Shown here in pieces: positions 2,203 through 54,270 of a stretch of DNA of 62,644 nucleotides. A program made the position numbers and the translations under genes. The first letter of the stretch is position 1. Each line of letters starts with the position of its first letter. Source of the DNA: Blautia sp. (GTDB lineage: Bacteria > Bacillota > Clostridia > Lachnospirales > Lachnospiraceae). The stretch lies in assembly GCA_023667395.1 (NCBI GenBank), contig JAMPAC010000014.1:1-62644 (forward strand). Reading direction: 5' to 3'. The notes beneath the pieces are model-generated. The model worked only from the letters and a program-made list of their open reading frames with translations, was not told the DNA's origin and searched no databases.

Positions 2203-2237
2203 AACAGAGCGGACGCAGGTTCCGCTCTGTTCGTTTT
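2203..2237 (+). terminator. intrinsic terminator of the sigma-serpin operon
   Basis: The perfect 10-bp stem ACAGAGCGGA/TCCGCTCTGT has a 7-base loop, followed by TCGTTTTA. It lies 22 bases after the serpin stop. Confidence 0.85.
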
Positions 2238-2245
2238 ATAGTTGT

Positions 2246-2692
2246 TTACTTCCATCCGTCTTTATTACTTCCTGTTTCAAAACTTAACGGAGAAACATGG
2301 GGATACTCGTCAACGGAGCCCTGATGTTTGAATGCCCATGCCCTCTGAGGGACATAAAGCAGGGACTCGAACTCCATGCCCCACACATTTTTTTCTTTGC
2401 CCTGTCTGACTTTTTCATAATAAGCCGGTCCGTTTATCAACGCAACGCACCTGGAATATAAAAAGGTGTCGTCAGACATCAGCGGATCAACTTTTCTGCA
2501 CTGTTCCGCCAGTTTTTCCATATCCAGATGATATAACAGTTCCGTCATCAGATCGTCAAATTCGAAAATAGCAGAATCGTCCTGTTTTGAAAGATATGCA
2601 ATAACCGGTTTAAGCACCTGATCGTCATCTCCTTCTTTCTCCCAGTCACACAATTCCATCGTCTTCCAAAAGAAATCATATTTCCTGTTCAT
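2246..2692 (-). CDS. DUF4240-like protein
   Basis: About 148 residues. The opening FFWKTMELCDWEKEGDDD and the later LYSRCVALINGPAYYEKV are the pattern I associate with DUF4240, a family of unknown function found widely in Firmicutes and Actinobacteria. It has no signal peptide or membrane helix, so it is probably cytoplasmic. The ATG at 2692 is preferred: the ATG at 2704 has AGGAGG almost touching it, whereas 2692 sits 13 bases after it, itself a little long. It starts about 38 bases after the GLUG-protein stop and may be the last gene of that operon. Base composition is more A+T-rich than its neighbours. Confidence 0.65.
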   Translation of the reverse strand: MNRKYDFFWKTMELCDWEKEGDDDQVLKPVIAYLSKQDDSAIFEFDDLMTELLYHLDMEKLAEQCRKVDPLMSDDTFLYSRCVALINGPAYYEKVRQGKEKNVWGMEFESLLYVPQRAWAFKHQGSVDEYPHVSPLSFETGSNKDGWK

Positions 2693-2730
2693 AACTCTTT
2701 TCATTCCTCCTGAAAATCCCTGTTGATCTT

Positions 2731-28015: not shown

Positions 28016-29242
28016 ATGCACGGAAATGTTATTGTAGGACAGTCGGGCGGACCCACTTCGGTGATCAACTCCAGTCTTGTGGGGGTATACAAGACGGCAA
28101 AAGACCGCGGTGCGAAGAAAGTGTACGGTATGCTCCACGGCATCAAGGGACTGCTGGACAGACAATATGTGGATCTGTCAGAGCATATCAAGTCAGACCT
28201 GGACATCGACCTCTTAAAGAGGACTCCCTCTTCTTTCCTGGGTTCCTGCCGCTTTAAGCTGCCGGAGATCAAGGAAGGCAAGGAAATCTATGACAAGATT
28301 TTCGAGATCTTAAAGGAACTGGAGATCGAGGCGTTCTTCTACATCGGCGGAAACGATTCCATGGATACCATCAAGAAGCTGTCCGATTACGCGATCCTGA
28401 TCAGCAGCGATATCAAGTTCATGGGCGTACCCAAGACCATTGACAACGACCTCGCATGCACCGACCATACGCCGGGCTTCGGAAGCGCTGCCAAGTATAT
28501 TGCCGCTGCCACAAAGGAAATCATCCGCGACGGCCTGGTTTACGATTATCCCGTTATCACCATCCTGGAGATCATGGGACGGAATGCCGGATGGCTTACC
28601 GCCGCTACCGCGCTGTCCAAGGGCGAGGACTGCGAGGGCGTGGATATGATATTCCTCCCCGAGGTAGCGTTCGATATCGATAAATTCATGACAAAAATAA
28701 AGGAACTGAGCCAAAACGGAAAGTCCATGGTCATTGCGGTTTCCGAGGGCATCAAGGTGGCGGATGGCAGGTATGTGTTCGAACTGACGGATCACGTTGA
28801 GTTTGTGGACGCTTTCGGTCACAAGCAGCTTCAGGGTTCCGCCAAGTTCCTGGCTGACAAGATCGGCAATGAACTGGGCGTAAAGACCCGCGCCATCGAA
28901 CTCAGCACCCTGCAGAGATGCGCTTCCCACATGACCTCCCGGGTGGATATCACGGAGGCGTTCCAGGTAGGCGGCGCTGCCGTGAAAGCCGCTTTTGAGG
29001 GCGATACCGGGAAAGTGGTGGTACTGGACAGGGTTTCCGAGGATCCCTACATCTGCACCACCGGCACCCAGGATGTGCATAAGATTGCCAATGTGGAGAA
29101 AAAGGTTCCCCTGGAGTGGATCACCGAGGACGGCACTTTTGTCAGCGACGAACTGATCCATTACATCCGTCCTTTGATCCAGGCGGAACTTTCACCCGTG
29201 ATGGTGGACGGACTTCCCAGACATCTGCGTCTGGATCTGTAA
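28016..29242 (+). CDS. pfp: 6-phosphofructokinase, pyrophosphate type
   Basis: 408 residues. The donor site reads GGNDS, and PKTIDNDL carries Lys where ATP enzymes have Gly (PGTIDND). This Lys blocks ATP and is the usual mark of pyrophosphate-dependent enzymes. MGRNAGW and the substrate loops are present. It phosphorylates fructose-6-phosphate in glycolysis, reversibly, at the expense of PPi. ATG 28016 follows GAGGAGGTTATTCTT. The codon usage looks strongly biased, as expected for a highly expressed gene. It is a single-gene unit followed by a hairpin. Confidence 0.9.
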   Translation: MHGNVIVGQSGGPTSVINSSLVGVYKTAKDRGAKKVYGMLHGIKGLLDRQYVDLSEHIKSDLDIDLLKRTPSSFLGSCRFKLPEIKEGKEIYDKIFEILKELEIEAFFYIGGNDSMDTIKKLSDYAILISSDIKFMGVPKTIDNDLACTDHTPGFGSAAKYIAAATKEIIRDGLVYDYPVITILEIMGRNAGWLTAATALSKGEDCEGVDMIFLPEVAFDIDKFMTKIKELSQNGKSMVIAVSEGIKVADGRYVFELTDHVEFVDAFGHKQLQGSAKFLADKIGNELGVKTRAIELSTLQRCASHMTSRVDITEAFQVGGAAVKAAFEGDTGKVVVLDRVSEDPYICTTGTQDVHKIANVEKKVPLEWITEDGTFVSDELIHYIRPLIQAELSPVMVDGLPRHLRLDL

Positions 29243-29266
29243 TGAGATAATATTTTCATATATAAT

Positions 29267-29315
29267 ATGGAACTGTTGCATCATGGATATTTCCTCTATC
29301 ATGCAGCAGTTCCAT
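29267..29315 (+). terminator. long hairpin after the phosphofructokinase gene
   Basis: 15-base arms ATGGAACTGTTGCAT and ATGCAGCAGTTCCAT pair fully when one U-G wobble is allowed, which works only in plus-strand RNA. No strong T-run follows, so termination may be weak; it may instead protect the 3' end. Confidence 0.6.
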
Positions 29316-29425
29316 TAAGTTTCAAATTAACTGTAGGTCAAATTGCCATTACCGAGGGAGCAATGGCAACGAAGGACTTCAACTATCAATGTTTCGCCTG
29401 GCTCATTACCTGCCCCAAATTATCA

Positions 29426-29454
29426 TTGTATTTTTATTGCAAATGGCATACAAT
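29426..29454 (+). promoter_or_regulatory. candidate promoter of the toxin-antitoxin operon
   Basis: TTGTAT (29426-29431) and TACAAT (29449-29454) are 17 bases apart, 29 bases before the antitoxin ATG. TTGCAA/TATAAA, slightly downstream, is an alternative. No clear operator dyad was found. Confidence 0.5.
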
Positions 29455-29482
29455 AGTAATATAAAATCAATGGAGGTGCAAT

Positions 29483-29746
29483 ATGGCAACACTACAAATT
29501 CGAGTTGAGGATTCACTAAAGTCTCAGGCAGACAATCTTTTTTCCAGCCTTGGGCTGGATACATCAACAGCAGTACGCATTTTTCTAAATGCTGCTGTTG
29601 AAAATAATGGAATCCCCTTTTCTATTGAACATAAAAGGGAGTATCCTTCCCTTGCGCAGGCTATTTATGACAGCAGGAATCGTCAAAACCTGCATGGTCC
29701 TTTCGATAATGGCGAAGCGGCTGTGTCAGCAATGCTAGAGGATTAA
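29483..29746 (+). CDS. relB: RelB/DinJ-type antitoxin
   Basis: 87 residues. The N-terminal half is a ribbon-helix-helix DNA-binding domain (LQIRVEDSLKSQADNLFSSLGLDTSTAVRIFLNAAV), typical of RelB/DinJ. The C-terminal half should wrap the toxin. It neutralises the next gene's product and represses the shared promoter. ATG 29483 is preceded by GGAGGTGCAAT. The four-base spacing to the toxin gene indicates a single operon. Confidence 0.92.
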   Translation: MATLQIRVEDSLKSQADNLFSSLGLDTSTAVRIFLNAAVENNGIPFSIEHKREYPSLAQAIYDSRNRQNLHGPFDNGEAAVSAMLED

Positions 29747-29749
29747 GCC

Positions 29750-30028
29750 ATGTATAGGATTGTCTACACAAACCGTATGAAACACGATGCAAAACTAATG
29801 AAAAAGCGTGGAAAGGATATGAACAAATTGGTTTTAGTACTTTCCATGCTTTCCAGCGGACATCCTCTCCCCAAACAATACCGAGACCATCAGCTTACCG
29901 GCAATCTACGTGACTTTCGTGAATGTCACATAGAACCTGACTGGTTGCTCATATATCAAATTTTTGAGGACACACTTATTTTATCAGCCACCGCTACTGG
30001 TACTCATGCTGATTTATTGGGCATCTGA
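29750..30028 (+). CDS. yafQ: YafQ-type mRNA interferase toxin
   Basis: 92 residues of the RelE/ParE superfamily, closest in pattern to YafQ: LPKQYRDHQLTGNLRDFRECHIEPDWLLIYQI, then TGTHADL at the end. Conserved His and Asp residues at the active site are present. YafQ cuts mRNA on the ribosome at in-frame codons. It lies directly beside the truncated end of the LanM gene, so the pair may mark or stabilise a rearrangement point. Confidence 0.92.
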   Translation: MYRIVYTNRMKHDAKLMKKRGKDMNKLVLVLSMLSSGHPLPKQYRDHQLTGNLRDFRECHIEPDWLLIYQIFEDTLILSATATGTHADLLGI

Positions 30029-30175
30029 AGTTTTTGTTTCTAAGCGGCCATGCTACGCTCACAGCAAAGCTGTTCGCTATTGGGCTCTCGTCTGATGAAA
30101 CACCGCTGATATATTATCTGTTAAGATAAACCGCTACCATAAGTAGACAATATTCAATTTTTATATGTTGCTCCG

Positions 30176-31480
30176 TTAAATGAGTTTCCTGTCCGAATCT
30201 CTGACCAGCAGGTCAGGATGTCCCAATGTCATCAGCATCATGGCGTACTGCTGTGTGTCCCGCACCAGATAACGAACCGACACATTCCGAAACAATCCCA
30301 GCATTTCCAAAGTCTTTTCCCGTTGTCTTGTGAAAAAGGAATATGCATTCTCAAATCCCTCTATGATTTCTTGCAGGAATTCATACGGTTCAATAAACTC
30401 TCCATTTAATATCGCCAGATTCTTTCCCTCTCCCATCTTGGGACGCCGATATTCAATATGCATTCTCACCGTGCCGGGATCCGCCACCACAGGCATTACC
30501 ACGGGTACCAGCTGACCTCCCTCCCCGTTGATCGCGCCTACGTTTACCCCTTCCCCCGCCTCGTTCCATGTATATAAGGGAAGAATCCCTATCTGTAAGA
30601 CAGAATCCCGATAGAATTGTTCCGTGAATGACATCCCTTCCTCTATTCCGGCTCCACGGCTTCCCACAGTCATCTCCAGATCCACAATAACCGGATACTC
30701 ACCGTGTGCAATCAGATTCTCATAATGCATATCTTCCGAACCCAGCAGGTAACTGACACATAACAACACTCCGTTCCTGTAATAATACCGTGATAATTCT
30801 TCACGGGAAATACAGGAAAGGGACGATACCCATTGGCACCAGCCATACTCACCCCTGTCCCAGGCCTGATACCACCAACAGGACATACCGATATTTTCAA
30901 AGACCCACCCCAGGAAAACCGCATATGCCTCGTCAACAGCCATGCTTCTGGGCTTATATACCAGCCTTTCGCCATTATCCAGTTCCAGAAGCAAGACCCA
31001 GCGCCCATGACGGTGGCTGTCTGAACCGCCTCCCCCAATCTTCCTGATCTCTCTACAGGGATTCTCAGGATACAGTCTCCGATTGAGTTCTTTCCTGTCC
31101 AGGGCGAATCTATCCAGCAACTCATTCATATTGCGAACAAAGTCGTCCATTGTCTGCACAAGCCCCTCATACAACATGGGATATGCCTCATAGATCTCCT
31201 TTCTGTAGGCCGGATTCCCAAGAAACATTTCACTGAAATATTCATACCGTTCCTGTATGGCTGCTCCTTTCAGCATTCCGTTTTCTTCACAGATTTCCAT
31301 CTCAAGGATCAATGTCCTGATGGTAATTGTCTGAACCTGTTTCGTAAATGCCTCCAACAACTCCTCCGCAAGTTCCGGAATTTCTTCCATTCCTTTTCTG
31401 TTTTCCTTTATTTTATGTAAGACAGTCTGTTGCAGATATTCGTAATATTCTTCAAATACGCCCTGTTTTTCCCTTTGCAT
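30176..31480 (-). pseudogene. truncated LanM lanthipeptide synthetase (dehydratase part only)
   Basis: 434 residues of the LanM dehydratase (DUF4135) domain. The kinase-like catalytic set is present: Lys176 (LVYKPRS), Asp250-His252-Asn255 (EDMHYEN) and Asp267/Glu269 (VIVDLEM). The protein stops at HPDLLVRDSDRKLI, in the middle of the dehydratase, and the whole LanC cyclase domain is missing. Normal LanM has 900-1000 residues, and the N-terminus is also about 100 residues short. I therefore call it a remnant, though the dehydratase sites are intact. ATG 31480 follows GGAGAGG. It follows a lanthipeptide precursor gene on the same strand. Confidence 0.8.
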
Positions 31481-31550
31481 AGCTTTACATCCTCTCCGGG
31501 CTTGAACGGATAGTATTCTCCGCACAGCCCATAAGACCATAGATGAAATC

Positions 31551-31577
31551 AGAAAAAGAAGGCATCCATACCTTCTT
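31551..31577 (-). terminator. attenuator between precursor and lanM remnant
   Basis: Minus strand AAGAAGG and CCTTCTT, with an 8-base loop, followed by TTTCT. A partial terminator at this spot is usual in lantibiotic operons, letting the precursor be made in excess over the modifying enzyme. Confidence 0.7.
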
Positions 31578-31595
31578 CTTCCTGCCATTCCCATA

Positions 31596-31763
31596 TTAAC
31601 AGCAAATAATTGTAAGAAACTCACCACATGATACTGTTATGGTTTCGATACCGTCCACTCTGCTATTCCCCTGTAACTTCTGCACTTCCCTCAGTTCCAG
31701 TTCCACACTTCCTGCCGCAGATTTCCCGCCCTGTTTTGCATTCCTGAGTTTTGTCATATCCAT
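31596..31763 (-). CDS. lacticin-481/salivaricin-A-like lanthipeptide precursor
   Basis: A 55-residue peptide. The leader part ends VELELREVQKLQGN, echoing the acidic leader and double-glycine-type site of class II lanthipeptides (here Gly-Asn, at residues 32-33). The predicted 22-residue core ends with DGIETITVSCGEFLTIICC. It has TITVSC, matching the TxSxEC motif of this family (Ser in place of Asp/Glu), and terminal Cys-Cys. The predicted ring pairs are core Thr8-Cys13, Thr10-Cys21 and Thr18-Cys22, the nested pattern of lacticin 481. AGGGGGTG sets the start. It lies just before the LanM remnant, and the gene is too short to stand out among the shadow frames. Confidence 0.78.
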   Translation of the reverse strand: MDMTKLRNAKQGGKSAAGSVELELREVQKLQGNSRVDGIETITVSCGEFLTIICC

Positions 31764-31776
31764 ATTTACACCCCCT

Positions 31777-31792
31777 GTCCGCTTCAGCGGAC
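31777..31792 (-). repeat. hairpin GTCCGC/GCGGAC before lanthipeptide start
   Basis: A perfect six-bp stem with loop TGAA on the minus strand, followed by AGGGGGTGTAAA and the start codon. The same arrangement (stem, AGGAGGGTGTAAA, ATGGAT) occurs before crt at 45748-45763. Confidence 0.65.
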
Positions 31793-31798
31793 ATTAAT

Positions 31799-31824
31799 TC
31801 AAAATTTGGAAGTTTACTTCCAAA
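31799..31824 (-). terminator. terminator after the RiPP ABC operon
   Basis: The perfect stem TTTGGAAG/CTTCCAAA with a four-base loop is followed by TTTT on the minus strand. It separates the upstream maturase-transporter operon from the lanthipeptide genes. Confidence 0.75.
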
Positions 31825-31958
31825 CTTTTTCCTCCAGACAGCAGCCTGCATCATACTCTATATAGTATTCCGCGCCTTCTTTCATTATGCAGGCCATTTC
31901 CCACAATCGTCAGTTTCTGACATATATCTGAAAGCCCAAACCCTCTGTCACAAAACAC

Positions 31959-32696
31959 TTATTTTAACTCCGATCTTTCAAAGATCAGGATCGATGCAGT
32001 CAGCGTAATAAAAAGTGTGACCAACGAAACTCCGACAAAAAGACCTTTTTGCAGTTCCTCCCAGTCCGACAGAATAAACATCTGACAGATAAACGAATAT
32101 TTTACTGGAGAAAATATCATCATATCTGCGTTGACATAATTAGAGGTTAATACCAGCAAAAGATATGATATCCCCAAACCTATCCCTATAGTTGCCACTG
32201 CATTTTTCGTTGCCAGTGCCAGGAATACAAAGAAACCACCCATTGCCATACATATCAGCCAGAAAAAGATAACCTGCGCCAGAACCTCCATGCAGCCCGC
32301 CATTGTCAGTTCCATTCCAAATCCATTCACGAGTGTCATGACTACCATCGGCACAGTTACAACTGTGGATAACAGACATAATAATCCTATGAAGAAAACC
32401 ACAATCTTGGCTAAAAAAACACTTCGCCGCGGTAAACCACAGAACAGCCCCATCCCCATGGTGCGGTCAGAAAATTCACTACAAAGGAACATGGCCGTAA
32501 ACACGCTTGTAAATATAGTGTGGAACAACACAAACGAATCCATGATGGGTAACATCTGATATCCCGATGCTTTAACCGAATTTGCAATCCAGAAAAAAGC
32601 AAAAAACAACCCCACTCCCACAGATAAAGCCATCGCCATCCTGTAACCGAAAGATTTTAATAATTTAAAAAATTCCGCCTTAATCAAATTCTTCAT
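31959..32696 (-). CDS. ABC-2 type permease of RiPP island
   Basis: 245 residues with six membrane helices and the opening MKNLIKAEFFKLLKS, typical of ABC-2 permeases of the lantibiotic-immunity (LanEG/BcrB) kind. It would expel a membrane-active peptide or lipid substrate together with the ATPase encoded just upstream; the genes overlap by four bases. In this setting it probably protects the producer from its own peptide. No signal peptide is needed. Confidence 0.85.
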   Translation of the reverse strand: MKNLIKAEFFKLLKSFGYRMAMALSVGVGLFFAFFWIANSVKASGYQMLPIMDSFVLFHTIFTSVFTAMFLCSEFSDRTMGMGLFCGLPRRSVFLAKIVVFFIGLLCLLSTVVTVPMVVMTLVNGFGMELTMAGCMEVLAQVIFFWLICMAMGGFFVFLALATKNAVATIGIGLGISYLLLVLTSNYVNADMMIFSPVKYSFICQMFILSDWEELQKGLFVGVSLVTLFITLTASILIFERSELK

Positions 32697-33622
32697 TTTG
32701 CCCTCCCTATCAACGACAGATAGTATTGGTCCAACTCATCACCTTTCAACGCTATTGTCCTTATATTTATTCCTTCCAGAACCAATACCCTACCTATTGC
32801 CCCGGTATCCAGATTATCCGGCATGTCATATACCTTTATCTCATTATCCGGCATCAACTTAAGATTCTGCAATCGCAGCTTCGTCTTTAAAACTGTTTCG
32901 GCCTTTGCTATATTATCTACTTTAATACATAAATATTTTTTGCACTTCTTGTTCAATTCTTCCGAAGTAATCTGTTCCAACATTTTTCCATTACGAATGA
33001 ATCCATAGCATGTAGCCAACTGATGCAACTCGCTTAACAAATGGCTGGAAATCAGAATGGTAATATTCATTTCCCGATTCAGCTTCCTTAACAATTCACG
33101 CAGACTCACCATGCCCTCAGGATCCAGACCGTTTATCGGTTCGTCGAGGAATAAAAATTCCGCTCCGCTTAATAATGCCATAGCGATTCCCAACCGCTGT
33201 TTCATTCCCAAAGAGAAGTTCCCTGCTTTCTTGGAACCGGTATTAGACAGACCTACTGCCTGTAAGGCTTCCATGATACACCTGTCCCCTATGATTCCCC
33301 GCTGCATCCTGCAGATCTCCAGATTATCTTTCGCCGTGAGGTGAGAATAAATTGCCGGTTTCTCAATAATACCGTTTATGCGTCTCCGCTGTATGTATAA
33401 CTTTTGAGGATCGTCCTCCCCGAACAATTCCAGCTTTCCCTCCGTCGGCATTGCAAATCCTGCCAGAATACGAATCAGAGTGGTTTTTCCCGCTCCATTC
33501 GCACCCACAAATCCGTAAATTTCTCCCCGCCTGATCTCCATATTCAAATGGTTTAGAACAGGATGATCTGTGCTTTTGTATTTTTTTATGATATCGCTCG
33601 CCTTAAATACTATTTCTGCCAT
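32693..33622 (-). CDS. ABC transporter ATPase of RiPP island
   Basis: 309 residues. Walker A is GANGAGKTT, the signature is FSLGMKQRL, Walker B is FLFLDEPINGLD, and ISSHLLSE holds the switch His. The BcrA/LanF-like C-terminal domain follows. It pairs with the overlapping permease. ATG 33622 is chosen because GGGGG precedes it closely; the in-frame start at 33670 lacks a ribosome site. It lies downstream of the small partner gene, suggesting that self-immunity or export belongs to the same operon as the radical SAM enzyme. Confidence 0.88.
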   Translation of the reverse strand: MAEIVFKASDIIKKYKSTDHPVLNHLNMEIRRGEIYGFVGANGAGKTTLIRILAGFAMPTEGKLELFGEDDPQKLYIQRRRINGIIEKPAIYSHLTAKDNLEICRMQRGIIGDRCIMEALQAVGLSNTGSKKAGNFSLGMKQRLGIAMALLSGAEFLFLDEPINGLDPEGMVSLRELLRKLNREMNITILISSHLLSELHQLATCYGFIRNGKMLEQITSEELNKKCKKYLCIKVDNIAKAETVLKTKLRLQNLKLMPDNEIKVYDMPDNLDTGAIGRVLVLEGINIRTIALKGDELDQYYLSLIGRAK

Positions 33623-33705
33623 TTTACCCCCATTTCTGCACATGTTTCCGTGAATCAGAGCAATGTACAATGCAACTCCTGAATATGATATTTATCACTG
33701 CTTCC

Positions 33706-34023
33706 TCATTCTTTTATCGTATTCTCCTGTCTGACAGGGACTATATACAACTTCTTATACTTATAATCAACTGTAAATTCACTATTATCTCCCAGCATAT
33801 GACCATATTTCTCAAAATAGGGATGCCATACTTTACTATATTTTTTCATACATTCCTTATAATCCTTCACCAACTCTGAGTACAGCAGGCTGTCTTCCTT
33901 TAAAATATCATTATTTCCGGCAATCTGCATGATCAGGCTTTCCAATGTACTTTTCATTTCAAATATATCCAACAATTCCCTCATTGCTTCTTCGGATACA
34001 TCGCATACAAATGTCTTGTTCAT
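33706..34023 (-). CDS. small partner protein of CXXX-repeat peptide maturation
   Basis: A 105-residue, mostly helical protein (VSEEAMRELLDIFEMKSTLESLIMQIAG, then YSELVKDYKECMKKYSKVWHPYFEKYG). Its size and place right after the radical SAM gene fit the small 'CXXX repeat peptide modification system protein' known from such loci; I rely on context more than on sequence. It may present the precursor to the maturase. No membrane segment. Start ATG 34023 is preceded by AGAAAGGCGGTTTATAATA. Confidence 0.6.
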   Translation of the reverse strand: MNKTFVCDVSEEAMRELLDIFEMKSTLESLIMQIAGNNDILKEDSLLYSELVKDYKECMKKYSKVWHPYFEKYGHMLGDNSEFTVDYKYKKLYIVPVRQENTIKE

Positions 34024-34079
34024 TATTATAAACCGCCTTTCTGTAAAATACTTTTCTGCGCTGGTTATTCGGCTTTCGG

Positions 34080-36245
34080 TTACAATAGCGAGCCACTCGC
34101 TGTGGGATTCCCCTGGGCAAGCCTTTCCAACGGATCATCATGATCACTTTGCGGTATATGGAAACTTTGAAATCCCTGAACACCCTGCTCTTTCAGCATT
34201 TCCAATAATTTCGCACTGTACCTTTTCTCCAGATGCGCAATTCTACACTGCATCTTAGTAGGCGTATTCACCTCGCCTGTTCCGAGATAGTTCCTGTACA
34301 CACAGCGGTCACAATGATATGCATCACAATTATCACAAGCCGGCGCCTTAGACAGATACGTCAATTTTCTGGTTCTTTCAAAGTTCAGATTCAATTCCTT
34401 ATTAAAGTAAAATGCCGGGCAAAAATAAAACTTACCATCCGGTGCAAGCGTTATATTCTTTTCACCCGCAAAGCAGTTATTCATCTTCTTCATAAAGATC
34501 CTGTCAGTGAGCTGACGTATCTCCTTGGGTTGACCTTTGATGATATAATCCAGCAGAATCTTGTTAAGCTTCTCCAGCTGCCTTTCATATTCCGTAATAT
34601 CAAAATTACTGTCCACTCCTGATAAGTTAATATTGACACGGGAAGTAAAAGGCAATATTCCTTTTACAACATCAGCCAGACCAGCCAGGTCGTATGCATT
34701 GATATTGAGTATGACCGGGGCATTTAATTCCCCGTCAGGCTTATCGGAAGTTTCATCAATGACATAAATAGCATCCTTGCGCTGTTTCCCTTTCTCAAAT
34801 TTCATGATGTGCCTGACAATATGGCGTTTCAATTCCTTTGCCAGCAAACCGCCATATTTTTCATCTGCCAACAATTTCTCCAGCCATATCTGACTGTCTG
34901 CCGAATGTACGAAAACCGGCTGGTAAAAATGGTCGAACGCATACTGCAAACCTTCCAGCAGTTTCTCCGGTTCCATCATTACTTTCGTTTCCGCCGGCAT
35001 AAACTGGCAGTAATTAACGCATTCCGATGACAAGATAAAATACATGAAGAATTCCTGCTGCAGCTTGACAGAGCGCTTTATGGAATGCTCATTATACAGT
35101 CTTGCCCAGAGATAATTATTCGCCCTCACCCGCGCCTTGTGCATATCACATATGGCCACAGAGCGGTAATACAGGGAATCACTGTCAGACTCATCATAAT
35201 TATTTCCCGCGCAATAAGTACAGCCCATGCTGACCCTGCAATCCAGGCATTTTTGCTCGCTCAGATATTTGGGGAACAAGGTTTGTAAAGGTCTTACCCT
35301 GTCAACATCAATTCCATGATATATGTCGCCTATTTTTTTCCCTGGTTTGCCATTTAAGGAATATTCCATAAACCTGACACAATTATAGATATCCCCCTTT
35401 GCATCCACACAGTACATTTTTCCTGTTCCACAGGAAGCGTGCATCAGCATTTCATCGGTTATTCTGAATCCTAAATTGTCATAGAAAAAAGAAGTATTAT
35501 ATTTATCCCAAAGACGATTATCTACAATATAGTCCGCCAAGGAGATCAATTGTTCCTGATAAACAACATCATCGCCTTTTTTCCACACATCCTCATATAC
35601 AACATTGGCCGGTATGTCTTCTATTCCCATGGACCATAAATGTATAATGCTATCCTTTAGATATTTCAGATCCTCCCTTCCAAAGGTCACTTTCGTGCCG
35701 CCCGCAAATCCCTGCTGTATGGCCATATTGTAGTTTCTCTCCACAATATCGTAGGAACCTGCACCATTTGGGAAAACACGCTGTAGATCATGCTTTTCCT
35801 TTGTCCCGTCAATGGTTATTCCCACTGATACCAGATTTCTGTTTTTCCTTAAAAATCTTTGGAAATCTTCACTGTCAACCAACAGTCCGTTAGACTGAAC
35901 ATTAATCCGAAACCTCCCAAACCACTTTGATTTTTTCTTATATGCAGCCAGCCGGAAATAATCGACTATCTGGTCAATCAGCTTTATTTCAAGTAACGCT
36001 TCGCCCCCGATAAAGTCCAGAATGATATAATCCCTTATGAATAGAGTTTCTTTATTATCCATAAAATAATCCACTGCCTTTTTTGCGACATCAAAACTCA
36101 TCACATTTTTATCATTCTTAACCATATAGCAATATTTACATCGCAGGTTACAGTCCTGCGTCACCACAAAGGTCAGCTGCTGCGACTCATTAGTTCGCCA
36201 CGAATTTTGCTTAAAGTCCCCCATTACATATTTCTTATCTTCCAT
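34080..36245 (-). CDS. radical SAM/SPASM peptide maturase, apparent two-module fusion
   Basis: 721 residues. Module 1 (about 1-390): radical SAM cluster Cys32, Cys36, Cys39 (CNLRCKYC), GGEALL, then a SPASM region with Cys272, 279, 289, 333, 336, 342, 345 and 366 for auxiliary iron-sulfur clusters. Module 2 (about 395-721) ends in its own cluster: Cys591, 609, 637, 640, 645, 648 and 667, following an ITLAPDGKFYFCP segment. In known CXXX-repeat RiPP loci these appear to be two separate maturase proteins, so this is probably a fusion. It should form thioether or related crosslinks on the cysteine-rich peptide encoded 119 bases upstream. The only in-frame radical SAM site is in module 1. Confidence 0.85.
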   Translation of the reverse strand: MEDKKYVMGDFKQNSWRTNESQQLTFVVTQDCNLRCKYCYMVKNDKNVMSFDVAKKAVDYFMDNKETLFIRDYIILDFIGGEALLEIKLIDQIVDYFRLAAYKKKSKWFGRFRINVQSNGLLVDSEDFQRFLRKNRNLVSVGITIDGTKEKHDLQRVFPNGAGSYDIVERNYNMAIQQGFAGGTKVTFGREDLKYLKDSIIHLWSMGIEDIPANVVYEDVWKKGDDVVYQEQLISLADYIVDNRLWDKYNTSFFYDNLGFRITDEMLMHASCGTGKMYCVDAKGDIYNCVRFMEYSLNGKPGKKIGDIYHGIDVDRVRPLQTLFPKYLSEQKCLDCRVSMGCTYCAGNNYDESDSDSLYYRSVAICDMHKARVRANNYLWARLYNEHSIKRSVKLQQEFFMYFILSSECVNYCQFMPAETKVMMEPEKLLEGLQYAFDHFYQPVFVHSADSQIWLEKLLADEKYGGLLAKELKRHIVRHIMKFEKGKQRKDAIYVIDETSDKPDGELNAPVILNINAYDLAGLADVVKGILPFTSRVNINLSGVDSNFDITEYERQLEKLNKILLDYIIKGQPKEIRQLTDRIFMKKMNNCFAGEKNITLAPDGKFYFCPAFYFNKELNLNFERTRKLTYLSKAPACDNCDAYHCDRCVYRNYLGTGEVNTPTKMQCRIAHLEKRYSAKLLEMLKEQGVQGFQSFHIPQSDHDDPLERLAQGNPTASGSLL

Positions 36246-36285
36246 GTATATTCAAGTCTCCCTGAAAATATATTTTTTGATATAG

Positions 36286-36338
36286 CATACAATGTGTGAA
36301 AGTAGAGATATTCCCAATGCCTGCTTCCACACAGTATG
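36286..36338. other. long imperfect hairpin between precursor and maturase genes
   Basis: The arms at 36286-36302 and 36324-36338 (CATACAATGTGTGAAAG against CTTCCACACAGTATG) pair with a few mismatches. In minus-strand RNA it has no T-run after it. It could limit read-through or fix the 3' end of the precursor message, giving more peptide than enzyme. Confidence 0.5.
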
Positions 36339-36364
36339 CAACCACTGATATTCAAGACCTATAA

Positions 36365-36535
36365 TTAATCCAGAGCCTTAAATACCTGTATCCAGGTACA
36401 ATTGTCACTGCAACTGAAGTGACACCCATGACTGCAATCACGCATACAGCCTGCAGCCCCGCTTGACGATGAACATGCAAAGTTTACTTCGTCTTCTTCA
36501 CCTGGCGAAAGATTAAACTGATTGTCATACATCAT
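36365..36535 (-). CDS. CXXX-repeat cysteine-rich RiPP precursor
   Basis: A 56-residue peptide (ATG at 36535, or the next ATG). The leader (1-20) is acidic, with LSPGEEDEVNFA. The core has six cysteines: Cys21, then Cys30, 34, 38, 42 and 46 in a strict four-residue repeat (CMRD, CSHG, CHFS, CSDN, C). A hydrophobic tail TWIQVFKALD follows. GGAAGGAGGG gives a strong ribosome site. Radical SAM/SPASM enzymes act on peptides of this kind, and the gene directly precedes one. The spacing suggests crosslinks along one helical face. Found by translating the gap between regulator and maturase. Confidence 0.85.
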   Translation of the reverse strand: MMYDNQFNLSPGEEDEVNFACSSSSGAAGCMRDCSHGCHFSCSDNCTWIQVFKALD

Positions 36536-36702
36536 ACCGATTCCCTCCTTCCTTTTAAGTTGATTTTTCAGTTATCAACTCTTTTTAAGAGCGTCGCCAT
36601 TTAAGCCATTTTATTTTAAAATCAGCATTTGTTCCTGTCATATTCAGCAATGCTATGTCCAATGACTTAAAAATAAGCCTGCCACGAAGCCCTTATATTT
36701 AT

Positions 36703-36767
36703 TTTATACTATCTCTTCTTCTATTTTTACAATAGTCTGACCGTAAACAGTAGTATTAGTGACCTTA
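36703..36767 (-). promoter_or_regulatory. candidate LytTR-controlled promoter of the RiPP operon
   Basis: The -35 TTGTAA (36727-36732) and -10 TATAAA (36703-36708) are 18 bases apart on the minus strand. Just upstream, a direct repeat TGACC(G/T)TA (as read on the plus strand) occurs at 36738-36745 and 36760-36767, 22 bases apart: two helical turns, as in LytTR/AgrA operators. A long leader follows, with a hairpin AGTTGAT/ATCAACT (36558-36580) just before the precursor's ribosome site. Confidence 0.6.
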
Positions 36768-36805
36768 TCCTGCCAGGAACCGTTCTCTGACAAAAGGTGA
36801 CAAAA

Positions 36806-37519
36806 TCATTTTCTCCAATACTTTGCCAATGCTTCCCTGACGCCTGAAATCATCCCCCGGCTGACCACATGCATGATTTCATCATTGTTCAGCCAAACCT
36901 CGTCCTTTTGAAAGCTGGAAATGTGCCGCATATTTACAATACAGCCCTTATTGATGTATAGAAAACGTTCATGGGGAAGCTGCCTGTATACTTCTCCCAA
37001 TGTACTTCTTTCCTTATAAATCCGCCCATTGGTACAATGAAAGACAACATATTTCTTTTCCTTTTCCAAATACAGGATTTCATTCAGGCGCATCCTTTTT
37101 ACCCAGGTAACCGCCTGGATAAAATAATATTCCTCACCGCTTAACCTTTCTCTCCGTATTCTGTCCAGGACAGGCGGAATTTCCTCTTTGTATCTGTCTT
37201 TCATAATATAGTCGTATGCCCTGACCTTATATGCCGGCAGCGCATATTTCTCAAATCCTGAGAGAATGACAATATTCGCATCTTCCTCCGCTTCCCTGAT
37301 TCTGCCAGCCAGTTCCAATCCGTTCAGTTCCGGCATCTCTACATCCAGGATATAGATATCATAATTCTTCTTTTCTTCCAGTTCCATTAATAACAGGGAA
37401 CCTTCCGCAAAATGCTTCACTGTAATCGCTTCGCCGATTCCCTGACTGAAATCCAAGACGACTTTCTCCACTCTCCCTGCAAATTCCACATCATCATCCA
37501 CTACGGCTATCCGCACCAT
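36806..37519 (-). CDS. LytTR family response regulator
   Basis: 237 residues. The receiver domain (1-120) has acidic pocket VDDD at 7-10, phospho-acceptor Asp59 (YILDVEMPELNG) and Lys111 in place of the usual K-P-F loop (IMKDRYK). The LytTR DNA-binding domain (about 130-237) shows RLNEILYLEKEKKYVVFH, then RFLYINKGCIVNM. It pairs with the GHKL kinase two genes upstream. The pair resembles AgrA/AgrC quorum sensing, so the finished peptide may induce its own operon. It lies 21 bases after the ABC exporter stop. Confidence 0.92.
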   Translation of the reverse strand: MVRIAVVDDDVEFAGRVEKVVLDFSQGIGEAITVKHFAEGSLLLMELEEKKNYDIYILDVEMPELNGLELAGRIREAEEDANIVILSGFEKYALPAYKVRAYDYIMKDRYKEEIPPVLDRIRRERLSGEEYYFIQAVTWVKRMRLNEILYLEKEKKYVVFHCTNGRIYKERSTLGEVYRQLPHERFLYINKGCIVNMRHISSFQKDEVWLNNDEIMHVVSRGMISGVREALAKYWRK

Positions 37520-37540
37520 TTCATTTTCCTCCCTGACATT

Positions 37541-39289
37541 CTATTTCCCGCCCTCGAATTTCCGTCTGACCATACAATAATAATTACCCTTGCTTTCCAT
37601 GAGTTCTTCATGCGTTCCTGCCTCACAGACACCGTGGTCATTCATAACATAGATCATATCGGCATCCCTGATTGTAGATAGTCGGTGCGTAATCATAACC
37701 ACTGTTTTATTGTACAGACTTTTTCTAATATTGTATAAGATTTTACTTTCCATGATTTGATCCAAAGCTGACGTTGCCTCATCCAATATCAAGACCGGAG
37801 CGTCGTTGAACAGGGCCCGTGCAATTGCTATCCTCTGATTTTGTCCGCCTGACAGCCTGCTTCCATTCTCACCGACCTGGGTATGATATTTGTCCTTCAG
37901 GTTTTCCGCGAATTCATCAACACAGGCAATGCGGCATACTTCCCTGAAACGCTGCTCTGTACCATTGGGATTACCCAGTACGATATTATTGTAAATAGTA
38001 TCATCGATCAGATATGTATCCTGCCTGACAACCATGATGGCACTCCTGATATAATTTAAATCATATGTTCTGATATCCCTGCCATCAACTTCTATTTTTC
38101 CTTCTTCCACATCCCATAGGCGATAAAGCAGGTTCAAAATGGTTGATTTGCCTTCCCCGCTTTCTCCGACAATCGCTGTCAGCTTTGCAGGCATAAAGTT
38201 CATATTGATATTCCTCAATACCTGTACGTCGCCATAGGAAAAGGAAACATTGCAATACGCAACCTTCCCTGACAGCTGACGCTCCGGAATAAAACAGGAT
38301 CCCTCCAGCGAGATATCGCTTTCTCTGGACAGGAAGGAATAGATTCTGTCCATTGACACATACACTGACTGAAACATCATATTGACATTGGAAATTCTCA
38401 TTATGGGAGCGATCAATCCCTGGGAATACATATGAAACGCCATTAATCCCCCGACAGTGAATGTTCCCATTATTATTTTATATCCGCCATATCCCAGGAT
38501 GGATATGGACATCGCAGCAGCGATAATGCTTAAAATACTTCTGCTTATGGTATTCACCATTGCCATCTGCACTTCCAAATCCGTGTTCTTTTCTATCGTT
38601 TTCTTATACTGGGCATAAAAATATGATTGTACTTTCATAATGACATGACTTATGATATTGGCAGACAAACCCTGCAGCAAAGAACTCAACCTACCCGTGC
38701 ATTCCCTCAGAACCTGGGACTGATTCATTATTTTTTCCCTGAATACCTTCTGTACAATAAAGATAGGGGGAAGAAAAATGAGTATTACAGCCAGCAGTTC
38801 CCACTGCAAAAATGCCAAAAAGACAATCATCACCCCTCCCGCTAAAGCATCCGATATAAAGCCCAAAAATGTACTTGTCGCAAATGACCTGATGTTATTT
38901 ATATCCTGCATGAGTATTGTCATCATTTCGCCGGGCTGCATATATGCATAAAATCCCCCTGATAACCCATATAAATGGTTGATGCACTTTTCCTGATAGG
39001 AAATTAAGATTTTTTTCCCTATAACAGAATAACAACATTGCATAACATTATTGGTCAAAGCATTGCAGACCGTTACGATCAGATAAACAGCTATAAGGGC
39101 CAGCATAAATTTCAGGTCTTTCCGAGGTATTGCTTCATCGATGATCTTCATCATGAATAACGGAGATAATAACGCCAGTACCATCTGAACGGCAGTTAAG
39201 ATTGCAATGATCACATAAAGCCATTTGTATCCTGAGATATCCTTCACCAGTTTTTTCAATAATTCTCTTTTCCGGTCTTTATCCAACAT
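37541..39289 (-). CDS. peptide-type ABC exporter (fused membrane and ATPase domains)
   Basis: 582 residues: six membrane helices (about 20-305) then an ATPase domain with GESGEGKST, LSGGQNQRI and VLILDEATSALD. The layout fits exporters of bacteriocins and lipids. It has no N-terminal C39 peptidase domain (length and start show this), so the leader must be removed by another protease or kept until outside. It lies between kinase and regulator genes of the RiPP island, which suggests export of the island's peptide. ATG 39289 follows AAAGGAGCATGCC. Confidence 0.9.
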   Translation of the reverse strand: MLDKDRKRELLKKLVKDISGYKWLYVIIAILTAVQMVLALLSPLFMMKIIDEAIPRKDLKFMLALIAVYLIVTVCNALTNNVMQCCYSVIGKKILISYQEKCINHLYGLSGGFYAYMQPGEMMTILMQDINNIRSFATSTFLGFISDALAGGVMIVFLAFLQWELLAVILIFLPPIFIVQKVFREKIMNQSQVLRECTGRLSSLLQGLSANIISHVIMKVQSYFYAQYKKTIEKNTDLEVQMAMVNTISRSILSIIAAAMSISILGYGGYKIIMGTFTVGGLMAFHMYSQGLIAPIMRISNVNMMFQSVYVSMDRIYSFLSRESDISLEGSCFIPERQLSGKVAYCNVSFSYGDVQVLRNINMNFMPAKLTAIVGESGEGKSTILNLLYRLWDVEEGKIEVDGRDIRTYDLNYIRSAIMVVRQDTYLIDDTIYNNIVLGNPNGTEQRFREVCRIACVDEFAENLKDKYHTQVGENGSRLSGGQNQRIAIARALFNDAPVLILDEATSALDQIMESKILYNIRKSLYNKTVVMITHRLSTIRDADMIYVMNDHGVCEAGTHEELMESKGNYYCMVRRKFEGGK

Positions 39290-39437
39290 GGCATGCTCCT
39301 TTAAACCGACAGCCCGAACGCCTGGTTCAAGTAAAATGAGTCTGAATCTATTGCACCTTTATCATATATAGTCATTCTCTCTTTTACAATACACTGGCCT
39401 CAAACGGCTGTCATTTTGACCCCCAATTGCTTACCGT

Positions 39438-40754
39438 TTAAAATCCTTTCAAATACACTGTCAGGTCAAAGACGCCATCTTTATTCTCTATCCGCATATG
39501 TCCCTCATATGTATTGACCACCTGCCTTATGCTGCGCATCCCAAATCCATGGTTCCTTTTATCCCCTTTTGTGGTTTCCGGAAGTCCCTCTGAAAACCGC
39601 ATTCCTGTTCCCGTCATCGGGTTAGATGTATGGAGTATCAGCATCTGACCCTTTCTCGCGCAGGTCAGTTCTATCCAACGCTCCATGCCTTCTGCGATTC
39701 TGCCGTTTGCCTCAATGGCATTATCCAGCATATTAGAAAATAAAGCGCAGATTTCTATTGGCTTCAGCAGCAGGCCGCTCATATCCTCCAGTTCATATCG
39801 CAGGGAAATGCCTACCCCTTCTGCCTCCCGGAATTTCTGGTTCACGATCAGGTTGATCAGATCATGATTCGCCAGGTTCCTGTTCCTGCCCTTCTGGAAC
39901 ACGCTGTCCATCTCATCCAGATAACAGAGTATCTCCTGATCATGCCCTTCTTCCGCCATTTCCCGGATTACCCTCATATGCATTTTGATGTCATGCCGCA
40001 GAATTTCCTTTTCTTCATAGACACGCATCAGTTCCGCATAGTCACCTTCCAGCATATCCATTTTCATTTTCAGCAGCCTGCCGTTCTCCCGTTCTTTCTG
40101 TATGACAGCATATGCCCCGAAAGCCAGCGCCGCCAACAGACTTCCCATCAGGAAAAGCCACCAGCGCTGTATCACCCGTTCAGAAATCAGCAGCTTATAT
40201 ACCCGCTGGAAGTAAATCTCACACACTAAAAACAATGGAACCAGAAACCAGCCCCATTTCAGGTATTTGCCCGCATTACATCCTTTCACACGACTGCGCA
40301 CAGATCGCACCACCATATAGAGCAAAACGGCGCATAGCAGCAGATAAACACTCCTATAAGAAGTGACCGTCAGAAAAATATCTGTTGGTAGTCCACTGTC
40401 CATCAAAACCATGCAGGCAATTGTCTGGAAAAAGAAATCCAGCAAAGCTAATCCTGTCCACAGCAGGAATATGATACAAAACGAATCTCGATATCTGCAA
40501 TAAAATGTAGTGCCACAGGCAAACGACAAGCATATAATAATGACAGTCATGCACCCATTTGAAAACAATGTGCTGATTACACTGTCATTATAGGCATTTA
40601 ACGAAGACAGCAACAAAATCACAACAATCCAGATCGTATTCTGTTTCTTCCTACCCCACCTGGGACCTGCGAACATCTCCATCAACCGCCAGGTCGCCCA
40701 CACTTTTACGACTGTATACAGGAAGTCACATCCAAAATAAAGTATCCTTGCCAT
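39438..40754 (-). CDS. AgrC-like GHKL sensor histidine kinase
   Basis: 438 residues. Six membrane helices in the first 215 residues form an AgrC-type sensor. The phospho-accepting His254 lies in ILRHDIKMHM, and the GHKL ATPase domain shows NMLDNAIEA (Asn345) and GFGMRSIRQV. Such kinases sense secreted peptides. It is first in the run kinase, exporter, regulator, precursor, maturase. The ribosome site before ATG 40754 (GTAGGT) is weak. Confidence 0.92.
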   Translation of the reverse strand: MARILYFGCDFLYTVVKVWATWRLMEMFAGPRWGRKKQNTIWIVVILLLSSLNAYNDSVISTLFSNGCMTVIIICLSFACGTTFYCRYRDSFCIIFLLWTGLALLDFFFQTIACMVLMDSGLPTDIFLTVTSYRSVYLLLCAVLLYMVVRSVRSRVKGCNAGKYLKWGWFLVPLFLVCEIYFQRVYKLLISERVIQRWWLFLMGSLLAALAFGAYAVIQKERENGRLLKMKMDMLEGDYAELMRVYEEKEILRHDIKMHMRVIREMAEEGHDQEILCYLDEMDSVFQKGRNRNLANHDLINLIVNQKFREAEGVGISLRYELEDMSGLLLKPIEICALFSNMLDNAIEANGRIAEGMERWIELTCARKGQMLILHTSNPMTGTGMRFSEGLPETTKGDKRNHGFGMRSIRQVVNTYEGHMRIENKDGVFDLTVYLKGF

Positions 40755-40787
40755 ACCTACACCCCATGTACGCCTTTAACAGGCACG

Positions 40788-40819
40788 AAAAGGGTTCCCT
40801 GCATCAAGAGAACCCTTTT
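40788..40819. terminator. bidirectional terminator after etfA
   Basis: AAAAGGGTTC and GAACCCTTTT form a perfect 10-bp stem with A and T runs in the arms. It ends the butyrate operon on the minus strand, 39 bases after etfA, and separates it from the RiPP island. Confidence 0.85.
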
Positions 40820-40857
40820 AACTCGTACTGTTTCCTTTTCAATTATCAGATGCCTCG

Positions 40858-41916
40858 TCAGTTCTTAGCCGCCTTCTCAGCCTTCAGCGCCGCCGTCAGG
40901 GCGGGAACGATCTTATTCAGGTCGCCCACAATGCCGTAATCAGCCACGTCAAAGATGGGCGCGGTGTCATCCTTATTGATGGCAACGATCAGGTCGGACT
41001 CCTCCATACCTGCCACATGCTGGATCGCGCCGGAAATACCGATGGCGAAGTAGATCTGGGGACGAACCGTCTTACCGGTCTGGCCTACCTGCAGATCCTT
41101 GGGCTTCCAGCCGCTGTCCACCACCGCACGGGAGCAGGATACGGTACCGCCCATCACTTCCGCCAGTTCCTCCAGTATCTTGAAGTTCTCCGGGCTTCCT
41201 ACGCCGCGGCCGCCGGATACCAACACCTTTGCGTCCATGATATCCACGGTGTCGGCAACTGCCTTTACCACTTCCTTGATGGTCACATATTTCTCATTGG
41301 GCGTAAAGCCGGGATTGAATTCTTCCACAACAGCCTTTGCGCCTGCGATGGGATCGATCTTCTGCATAACGCCGGGACGTACCGTTGCCATCTGGGGACG
41401 ATTGTCCGGGCAGGCAATGGTGGCGATGGTGTTGCCGCCGAAAGCGGGACGGGTCATCAGCAGCTGGTTATGCTTCTGCTCCACGCCGGGAGCCGCCGTC
41501 AGGGGGAAATCACCGATTTCCAGTACGGTACAGTCTGCGGTCAGGCCTGTTGCAACCCTTGCGGAAACCGTGGGGCCAAGGTCTCTTCCGATGGCGGTAG
41601 CGCCTACCAGCACGATCTCCGGTTTATACTGATTGATCACGGAAGACAGCGCGTGAGCGTAGGGCTCTGTCCTGTAGACCTCCAGTTCGGGATCGTCCAC
41701 AACGATCACCTTGTCAGCGCCGTACTCCGCCAGCTTATCAGCCAGACCCTTTACCTGATATCCGATCAGCACCGCCACAACCTCTGTTCCCAGCTTCGCG
41801 GCAAGTTCCTTACCCTTTCCCAACAGTTCGAAAGCAATGCCGCTGATCTCATTGTCCACCTGCTGGGCAAACACATATACACCTTTATACTCTTCAAGAA
41901 CGATATCCTTGTTCAT
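40858..41916 (-). CDS. etfA: electron transfer flavoprotein, alpha subunit
   Basis: 352 residues. The FAD-binding C-terminal domain is clear: SRAVVDSGWKPKDLQVGQTGKTV, YFAIGISGAIQHVAGM, IVAINKDDTAPIF. With EtfB it forms the bifurcating partner of butyryl-CoA dehydrogenase, coupling crotonyl-CoA reduction to ferredoxin reduction by NADH. It is the last gene of the butyrate operon, 21 bases after etfB. Cytoplasmic. Confidence 0.96.
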   Translation of the reverse strand: MNKDIVLEEYKGVYVFAQQVDNEISGIAFELLGKGKELAAKLGTEVVAVLIGYQVKGLADKLAEYGADKVIVVDDPELEVYRTEPYAHALSSVINQYKPEIVLVGATAIGRDLGPTVSARVATGLTADCTVLEIGDFPLTAAPGVEQKHNQLLMTRPAFGGNTIATIACPDNRPQMATVRPGVMQKIDPIAGAKAVVEEFNPGFTPNEKYVTIKEVVKAVADTVDIMDAKVLVSGGRGVGSPENFKILEELAEVMGGTVSCSRAVVDSGWKPKDLQVGQTGKTVRPQIYFAIGISGAIQHVAGMEESDLIVAINKDDTAPIFDVADYGIVGDLNKIVPALTAALKAEKAAKN

Positions 41917-41937
41917 GACTAAACCTCCAATTTTCTA

Positions 41938-42723
41938 TTAAACGATGTGCTTCTCTTTGAATTTACCCACAATGTATGCAACCGCATCTTCGGGAGAATC
42001 GGGAACTACTTTCTCGCCTGCGCCCTTGCGGACCTTATCGGATGCCTTCGCGATCTTGGTGGGGGAACCTTTCAGCCCCAGGTCGCTGTCGTCCACATCC
42101 TTCAGGTCGGCCCTGCCCCACTGGGTGATCTCGGCGTCGCATGCGTCAAAGATTCCGCCGGGGGTCATGTAACGGGGCTCGTTCAGTTCGGAAAGCGCGG
42201 TGATCAGGCAGGGCATCTTTGCCTCCAGGACATGGTATCTGTCGTCATACTGTCTCTGTACGATCACCTTGTCGCCCTCAATCTTAATCTCCTGCGCATA
42301 GGAAATCACGGGAATGCCAAGGTGCTCCGCGATCTGGGGGCCAACCTGTGCGGTATCGCCGTCGATGGCCTGACGGCCGGTGATGATCAGGTCATAATCG
42401 ATATTTCTCAGCGCGCCCGCGATGGTGGTGGAAGTCGCCCATGTGTCAGCGCCGCCCAGCACTCTGTCGGTCACAAGGATGCCCTTGTCCGCGCCCATGG
42501 CCATTGCCTCGCGGAGTACGTCCGCCGCCTTGGGAAGACCCATGGTGAGAACGGTCACCTCTGCGCCAAACTGCTCCTTTAATCTCAGCGCCGCTTCCAA
42601 GCCGGCCTTGTCATCAGGATTCATGATTGCAAGCATCGCACCCCTGTCAAGGGTTCCGTCCGGATTAAATTTCACGCCGCCCTTTGTATCGGGCACCTGC
42701 TTAATACAAACAACAATCTTCAT
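41938..42723 (-). CDS. etfB: electron transfer flavoprotein, beta subunit
   Basis: 261 residues with VVCIKQVPDT at the start and the DLIITGRQAIDGDTAQVGPQIAE motif. In bifurcating complexes this subunit carries the NADH-accepting flavin. It lies between bcd (30-base gap) and etfA, the standard clostridial order, and GAGAAAAGACA precedes its start. Confidence 0.96.
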   Translation of the reverse strand: MKIVVCIKQVPDTKGGVKFNPDGTLDRGAMLAIMNPDDKAGLEAALRLKEQFGAEVTVLTMGLPKAADVLREAMAMGADKGILVTDRVLGGADTWATSTTIAGALRNIDYDLIITGRQAIDGDTAQVGPQIAEHLGIPVISYAQEIKIEGDKVIVQRQYDDRYHVLEAKMPCLITALSELNEPRYMTPGGIFDACDAEITQWGRADLKDVDDSDLGLKGSPTKIAKASDKVRKGAGEKVVPDSPEDAVAYIVGKFKEKHIV

Positions 42724-54269: not shown

Positions 54270-54270
54270 G

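Follow-up and report, generated by a model that had tools for sequence, protein, structure and literature searches.

A probably acquired and privately regulated CXXX-repeat peptide island in a Blautia contig, encoding a fused radical SAM maturase with a putative helper half

Contig JAMPAC010000014.1 of Blautia sp. (62,644 nucleotides, analysed whole and called the window below) carries between positions 31,959 and 40,754 a set of eight genes whose centre, a 721-aa enzyme, its small partner protein and a 56-aa peptide, is a CXXX-repeat operon for a ribosomally synthesized and post-translationally modified peptide (RiPP). The enzyme joins two maturase domains, the second of which has the cysteines of an auxiliary cluster domain and lacks the S-adenosylmethionine (SAM) cluster motif of the first. 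We favour, at a probability of roughly 0.55, the reading that the locus is a probably acquired, privately regulated RiPP island in which the C-terminal half of the maturase acts as a helper and a LytTR regulator switches the operons. All parts named in an earlier note made from the DNA sequence are present, on the minus strand throughout, and NCBIfam or Pfam matches back the identities it gave to the ABC-2 pair, partner, exporter, LytTR regulator and GHKL kinase. In order of transcription, the features are:

39438..40754 (-), GHKL (AgrC-type) sensor histidine kinase, 438 aa (PF14501, 83.9 bits, cut-off 22)
39384..39421 (-), operator-like element, the copy upstream of the exporter-regulator operon
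37541..39289 (-), ATP-binding cassette (ABC) exporter, 582 aa (PF00664, 100.9 bits; PF00005, 106.5 bits)
36806..37519 (-), response regulator with LytTR DNA-binding domain, 237 aa (PF00072, 58.3 bits; PF04397, 52.8 bits)
36727..36764 (-), operator-like element, second copy, upstream of the peptide operon
36365..36535 (-), CXXX-repeat precursor peptide, 56 aa, six Cys (open reading frame and Cys register)
36246..36364 (-), peptide-maturase gap, 119 nt, with a stable RNA hairpin (folding)
34080..36245 (-), fused maturase, 721 aa (TIGR04115 in the N-terminal half, TIGR04119 in the C-terminal half)
33706..34023 (-), TIGR04116-type partner, 105 aa (48.3 bits, cut-off 50; conserved position)
32693..33670 (-), ABC-2 transporter ATPase (TIGR03740, 203.2 bits, below the cut-off of 309.75)
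31959..32696 (-), ABC-2 transporter permease, 245 aa (PF12730, 27.7 bits, cut-off 27)

Kinase, exporter and LytTR regulator thus lie upstream of the peptide and maturase, and the ABC-2 pair downstream. Pfam finds ABC_membrane and ABC_tran in the exporter, and no leader-peptidase domain is among its matches. For this arrangement we infer a scheme in which the N-terminal radical SAM/SPASM half would modify the 56-aa peptide, most likely with carbon-sulfur (ranthipeptide-type) crosslinks from the register cysteines, and the C-terminal half and the partner would probably hold and feed the Cys ladder, or relay electrons. The ABC exporter would release the product and the ABC-2 pair probably protect the producer. 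The AgrC-type kinase would respond to a signal from outside, for which the product itself is a plausible candidate, and the LytTR regulator, by binding a direct repeat of 22-bp period before both operons, would raise itself and the exporter together with the peptide and maturase.

The profile search against the CXXX-repeat maturase families that the earlier note had proposed placed both halves over cut-off: residues 22-378 match TIGR04115 with 437 bits (cut-off 350), and residues 511-709 match TIGR04119 with 217.4 bits (cut-off 150). The two Cys clusters lie exactly where they had been put, at 272-366 and 591-667, and the idea of two fused maturases holds, with a two-gene version found elsewhere (locus L144, below). 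That the enzyme directly follows the peptide is refined by the 119-nt gap with its hairpin. The fusion itself is not unusual. TIGR04119 matches over cut-off were found in 1 of 61 relatives (the genome itself), in 3/392, 6/391 and 1/398 genomes sampled from the order, class and phylum (in the last, again only the genome itself; the three sets and the relatives overlap, and each includes this genome), and in 5/11 and 7/130 genomes of two families that had given matches, altogether 18 loci in 16 genomes. Since all 18 fit one fused frame, fusion is the usual form among the genomes searched: the frame is open over 713-736 aa in 16, the others having 609 aa (L037, in-frame stop in the N-terminal part) and 492 aa (L042, contig end). 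Locus L027, from an uncultured Lachnospiraceae metagenome-assembled genome and with a maturase 82% identical to that of the window, brings the set to 19; L063 repeats L035 (a 115566-base record with the same peptide) and was counted once. L037 and L042 were left out of the 17-row alignment used below and are in a 10-row one. Among plasmid records, 99 gave some match, and query coverage was at least 80% in one, Anaerococcus prevotii pAPRE01, whose protein WP_012797095.1 (41.1% identity over 97%) is named by NCBI 'radical SAM peptide maturase, CXXX-repeat target family'. A full-text search of one open-access library returned no paper on the family accessions, on 'CXXX-repeat' or on a CXXX radical SAM RiPP; the island hence belongs to a kind that is named in NCBIfam, with no paper found in that library.

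The partner falls just short of the TIGR04116 cut-off and is assigned to that family by position: a TIGR04116 match stands right after the maturase in 18/18 loci, over cut-off in 13 of the 16 genomes. The precursor has, as the earlier note described, five cysteines in exact four-residue register (30, 34, 38, 42 and 46), and a sixth lies nine residues ahead (21). Among the 644 six-frame open reading frames of 25-160 aa in the window, the pattern C(...C)3 occurs in this peptide alone; C(...C)4 did not arise when all 644 were shuffled 100 times, and arose in 2 of 20000 shuffles of the 56-aa peptide. A CXXX peptide lies near the maturase in 18 of the 19 loci, the exception being a 4-kb contig, and in 21 such peptides, several of them near-identical, 121 of the 149 distances from one Cys to the next equal exactly four residues, with up to 16 register cysteines per peptide. 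At two loci the maturase adjoins a subtilisin-like protein (PF00082; L038 11631-12326, L059 4690-5385), a candidate leader protease, and L039, L058 and L061 have open reading frames with a similar start.

Eighteen cysteines are invariant in all 17 complete fused enzymes: the CX3CX2C motif (32, 36, 39), seven in the first SPASM domain, one at position 413 and seven in the second SPASM domain (591, 609, 637, 640, 645, 648, 667). The CX3CX2C motif is absent from the C-terminal half in 17/17, which goes against the earlier picture of two catalysts in one chain; the same half had been held open to refutation should it prove unrelated to any SPASM or maturase family, and it is in fact homologous to the N-terminal half, with a complete seven-Cys SPASM set. 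In a profile comparison of 64 N-half rows (17 fused enzymes, 46 from viral contigs with open reading frames outside 300-480 aa excluded, and L144 entered without its first 18 residues) against 18 C-half rows, the C-terminal half aligned to the whole N-terminal half with probability 98.4 over 282 columns and a score of 112.5, where 100 shuffles reached 23.1 at most. An 8-row comparison gave an alignment spanning the SAM motif to the SPASM domain; the alignment from 17 close rows extended over 144 columns, and there the barrel part by itself reached a probability of only 18.9. One of 30 shuffles in this 17-row comparison returned 99.0, which a rerun identified as a 13-column edge artefact, and probabilities were at most 3.9 in 150 more shuffles, 2.17 in 100 barrel shuffles and 1.38 in 100 full-length shuffles. 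A profile built from the C-terminal half alone finds 5wgg at its SPASM region (E 5.1e-6). We read the C-terminal half, from these alignments, as an old internal duplicate that has lost SAM-cluster binding and kept the auxiliary-cluster cysteines, probably a non-catalytic helper.

Two further architectures bear on the role of this half. L144 (MT837480.1, from human faeces; an unverified record labelled bacteriophage, with genes that look bacterial) encodes the halves as two open reading frames overlapping by 4 bases (2689-3957, 630 bits to TIGR04115; 3954-4919, 235 bits to TIGR04119), followed by a TIGR04116 protein (104.6 bits). The other is phage-type. A single protein query found nothing in viral contigs; a family profile gave 76 viral-contig loci, 19 of them with a TIGR04116-like protein. 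The profile for that partner had 14 seeds, two of them wrong antisense frames which, with their copies, also matched the profile; the right partners were still found. The systems in L070 (4907-10562) and L095 (4234-10509), both from IMG/VR, combine a CXXX peptide with a radical SAM enzyme of the N-half type (496 bits to TIGR04115 in L070) and a TIGR04116-like protein; the stretches fetched for the two showed no C-half. CXXX peptides also occur in L086 and L098, and the phage-type contigs have one neighbour peptide of 195-213 aa. L070 and L095 are flanked by a collagen-like or Peptidase_G2 tail-type gene on one side and an amidase gene on the other; among the matches listed from the phage RiPP literature, none concerned phage-type CXXX loci by its title or the start of its abstract. 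Because L070 and L095 have the peptide, N-half enzyme and TIGR04116-like protein with no C-half found, these three seem to be the core of the system, and the C-half an addition. Beside the radical SAM genes of viral contigs L084 (9025-9534) and L094 (7255-7764) lie 169-aa proteins that may be short relatives of the helper half, with weak matches to the C-half profile (E 6.6e-9 and 7.3e-8).

Regulation by the island's own sensor pair, the 'self-regulated' part of the earlier proposal, gains predicted support in cis. One operator-like element, GGTCA-N17-GGYCRG-N2-TATTGYAA, stands in the gap ahead of the peptide and again in that ahead of the exporter, in the window as in L027. With up to two mismatches it occurs in the 4.43-Mb genome at the two island sites only; three mismatches add four sites, the same number as a reversed-pattern control. 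The bare repeat GGTCA-N17-GGTCA with one mismatch, unlike the longer element, is not rare (6 in the window, 3.84 expected). As direct repeats with a 22-bp period, the element fits LytTR control; in the excerpts available of the respective papers, PlnC/PlnD use 9-bp repeats with a 12-bp spacer (PMC2714321) and SilA 10-bp repeats with an 11-bp spacer (PMC2766830). The kinase type and the shared element make a signal role of the product plausible. The hairpin between peptide and maturase (-29.2 kcal/mol, z -3.00, 2 of 200 shuffles folding equally well) recurs in L027, where the final 106 nt of the gap give z -5.51 (0 of 200), and may favour the peptide over the enzyme. Rfam gave nothing at gathering score in 29000-42000, and scans for sigma-70 sites (38, 23.4 expected) and terminators (7, 6.1 expected) were not used.

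Several points weigh against the favoured reading. The curated target model TIGR04117 does not match the 56-aa peptide (14.7 bits, cut-off 50); the L144 peptide also reaches only 43 bits, despite neighbours over cut-off for TIGR04115, TIGR04116 and TIGR04119. The partner gene of pAPRE01 is broken by stops. The barrel part of the C-terminal half by itself gives a probability of only 37-44 (43.5 in the 64/18-row comparison, 36.7 with gap columns removed), at a score of 32.8 against at most 21.6 in shuffles. The pattern of the element derives from the same four sites it then recovers, so that its uniqueness and place are the informative points. The GHKL/LytTR pair, present beside peptide and exporter in the window, occurs in 2 of the 19 loci (window and L027), as judged elsewhere from gene maps, with domain searches for part of the neighbours. 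Finally, most cysteines of the 21 peptides are preceded by Ser, Thr, Gly or Asn.

This last point touches the chemistry. The next-best families of the N-terminal half are PapB (179.3 bits, cut-off 340) and SCIFF (125.6 bits, cut-off 425), neither equivalog cut-off being reached, and its best PDB match is 5wgg (E 1.3e-38), which we take to be the SCIFF maturase CteB. Because these families include thioether makers, a thioether ladder is our first guess, at about even odds. PapB, as described in an excerpt of PMC9413430, uses Asp/Glu, and the Ser, Thr, Gly or Asn before each Cys therefore count against a simple copy of PapB. The fullest form of the favoured reading, an autoinducing thioether ladder with crosslinks at every fourth residue, made through radical SAM chemistry by one polypeptide with up to five iron-sulfur clusters whose degenerate half holds the ladder or relays electrons, is tentative and, in our view, rather unlikely.

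The alternative that survives best is a bacteriocin-like product which is not its own inducer, with the kinase sensing something else (stress, a competitor or another peptide) and immunity provided by the ABC-2 pair. The ABC-2 ATPase is similar to lantibiotic-protection ATPases, albeit below the TIGR03740 cut-off, and the gene maps of other CXXX loci lack the sensor pair, an Anaerococcus-type locus having a LuxR-type regulator in its place. The element, on the other hand, couples the promoters of the peptide and of the exporter and regulator, as in the autoinducing loci described in the parts consulted of PMC2714321 and PMC2766830, and we consider this alternative possible, if on the unlikely side.

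The peptide might instead be a carrier or shield binding metal or clusters, and not a crosslinked antibiotic or signal. CXXX peptides can be very rich in cysteine, up to the 16 register cysteines mentioned, and L144 has, ahead of its maturase halves, a 174-aa CXXX peptide with a twin-arginine-like motif and, after the TIGR04116 gene, TatA and TatC, as for folded cargo (system 2222-6270); this peptide is probably exported folded. Against a carrier in the window stand the thioether chemistry of the radical SAM enzymes nearest the N-terminal half and the dedicated exporter and sensor pair, and we regard it as doubtful.

Also improbable, and slightly more so, is that both halves are catalytic or bind one SAM cluster jointly, the C-terminal half using non-standard ligands around C413. 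This residue aligns to the second Cys of CX3CX2C and is the sole motif position conserved in 17/17, the second SPASM domain is complete, and the window and L027 alone have Cys at the first motif position (409); the third is Cys in none shown. Yet 15 of the 17 enzymes retain only one Cys in the motif region, and the phage-type systems do without a C-half.

At 41.7%, the G+C content of the island is below the 53.2 and 53.9% of its flanks, so that it was likely acquired. Beside etfA, the next gene, no island gene match was found in the 19 fetched of 27 matches in relatives (flanks of up to ~1.5 kb, some shorter; filter >60 aa and >35% identity). Downstream of the ABC-2 pair, at 30176-31627 (-), lies what is probably left of a lanthipeptide synthetase, the N-terminal part only of a LanM gene (483 aa, matching positions 2-432 of a 932-position profile). 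That the island is decaying or silent, carried along with mobile DNA and without present function, as this truncated neighbour and the restriction of TIGR04119 to the own genome among 61 relatives might suggest, is very improbable: all eight genes have open frames, and L027, whose maturase is 82% identical, retains the genes as well as both elements and the hairpin.

Joint lanthionine modification was considered and rejected: the LanM gene of the window is truncated, and a LanKC gene was seen only at pAPRE01 among the loci read. There, on a conjugative plasmid, the CXXX system has as neighbours a class III lanthionine synthetase and the peptides belonging to it (L035, 4632-9920). In the window, a YafQ-type toxin gene of a type II toxin-antitoxin system (29750-30028, +) adjoins the island, and three large serine recombinases in a row (52710-57656, -), ~12 kb from its upstream end, are a separate mobile element.

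As a test case the island is compact, holding the peptide with its enzyme and partner, an exporter, and a private switch for which two sites are predicted. The function of the second half can be approached directly by comparing the degenerate form found here with L144 and with L070 and L095. An enzyme that matures repeating Cys ladders would also be of interest for peptide engineering.

Compared with known systems, the island is closest to the CXXX-repeat system of pAPRE01, which likewise groups a fused TIGR04115 and TIGR04119 maturase, small partner, CXXX peptide and ABC exporter; it adds the GHKL/LytTR pair, the private two-site element, the ABC-2 pair and an extra Cys before the ladder, and its peptide is outside TIGR04117. 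The PapB and SCIFF maturases lack the second SPASM domain of the much larger island enzyme, whose Cys ladder has no Asp/Glu acceptors at a fixed place. TrnC and TrnD of thuricin CD, as presented in excerpts of PMC12093266, are a precedent for two related radical SAM modules that cooperate with one SAM cluster dispensable; they are, however, two separate proteins, and TrnD keeps its SAM motif with only a 3-Cys twitch domain, whereas the island C-half has lost the motif and keeps seven SPASM cysteines. The pln locus of Lactobacillus plantarum and sil of streptococci, going by the same excerpts as above, share kinase, LytTR regulator, exporter and peptide, and their controlled promoters are preceded by tandem repeats spaced at about two turns of the helix; the island differs from them in a radical-SAM-modified peptide, an exporter with no recognised peptidase domain and another repeat sequence. 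New here are the homology and motif loss of the C-terminal half, the shared element, the acquisition signal, and the phage-type and two-gene architectures.

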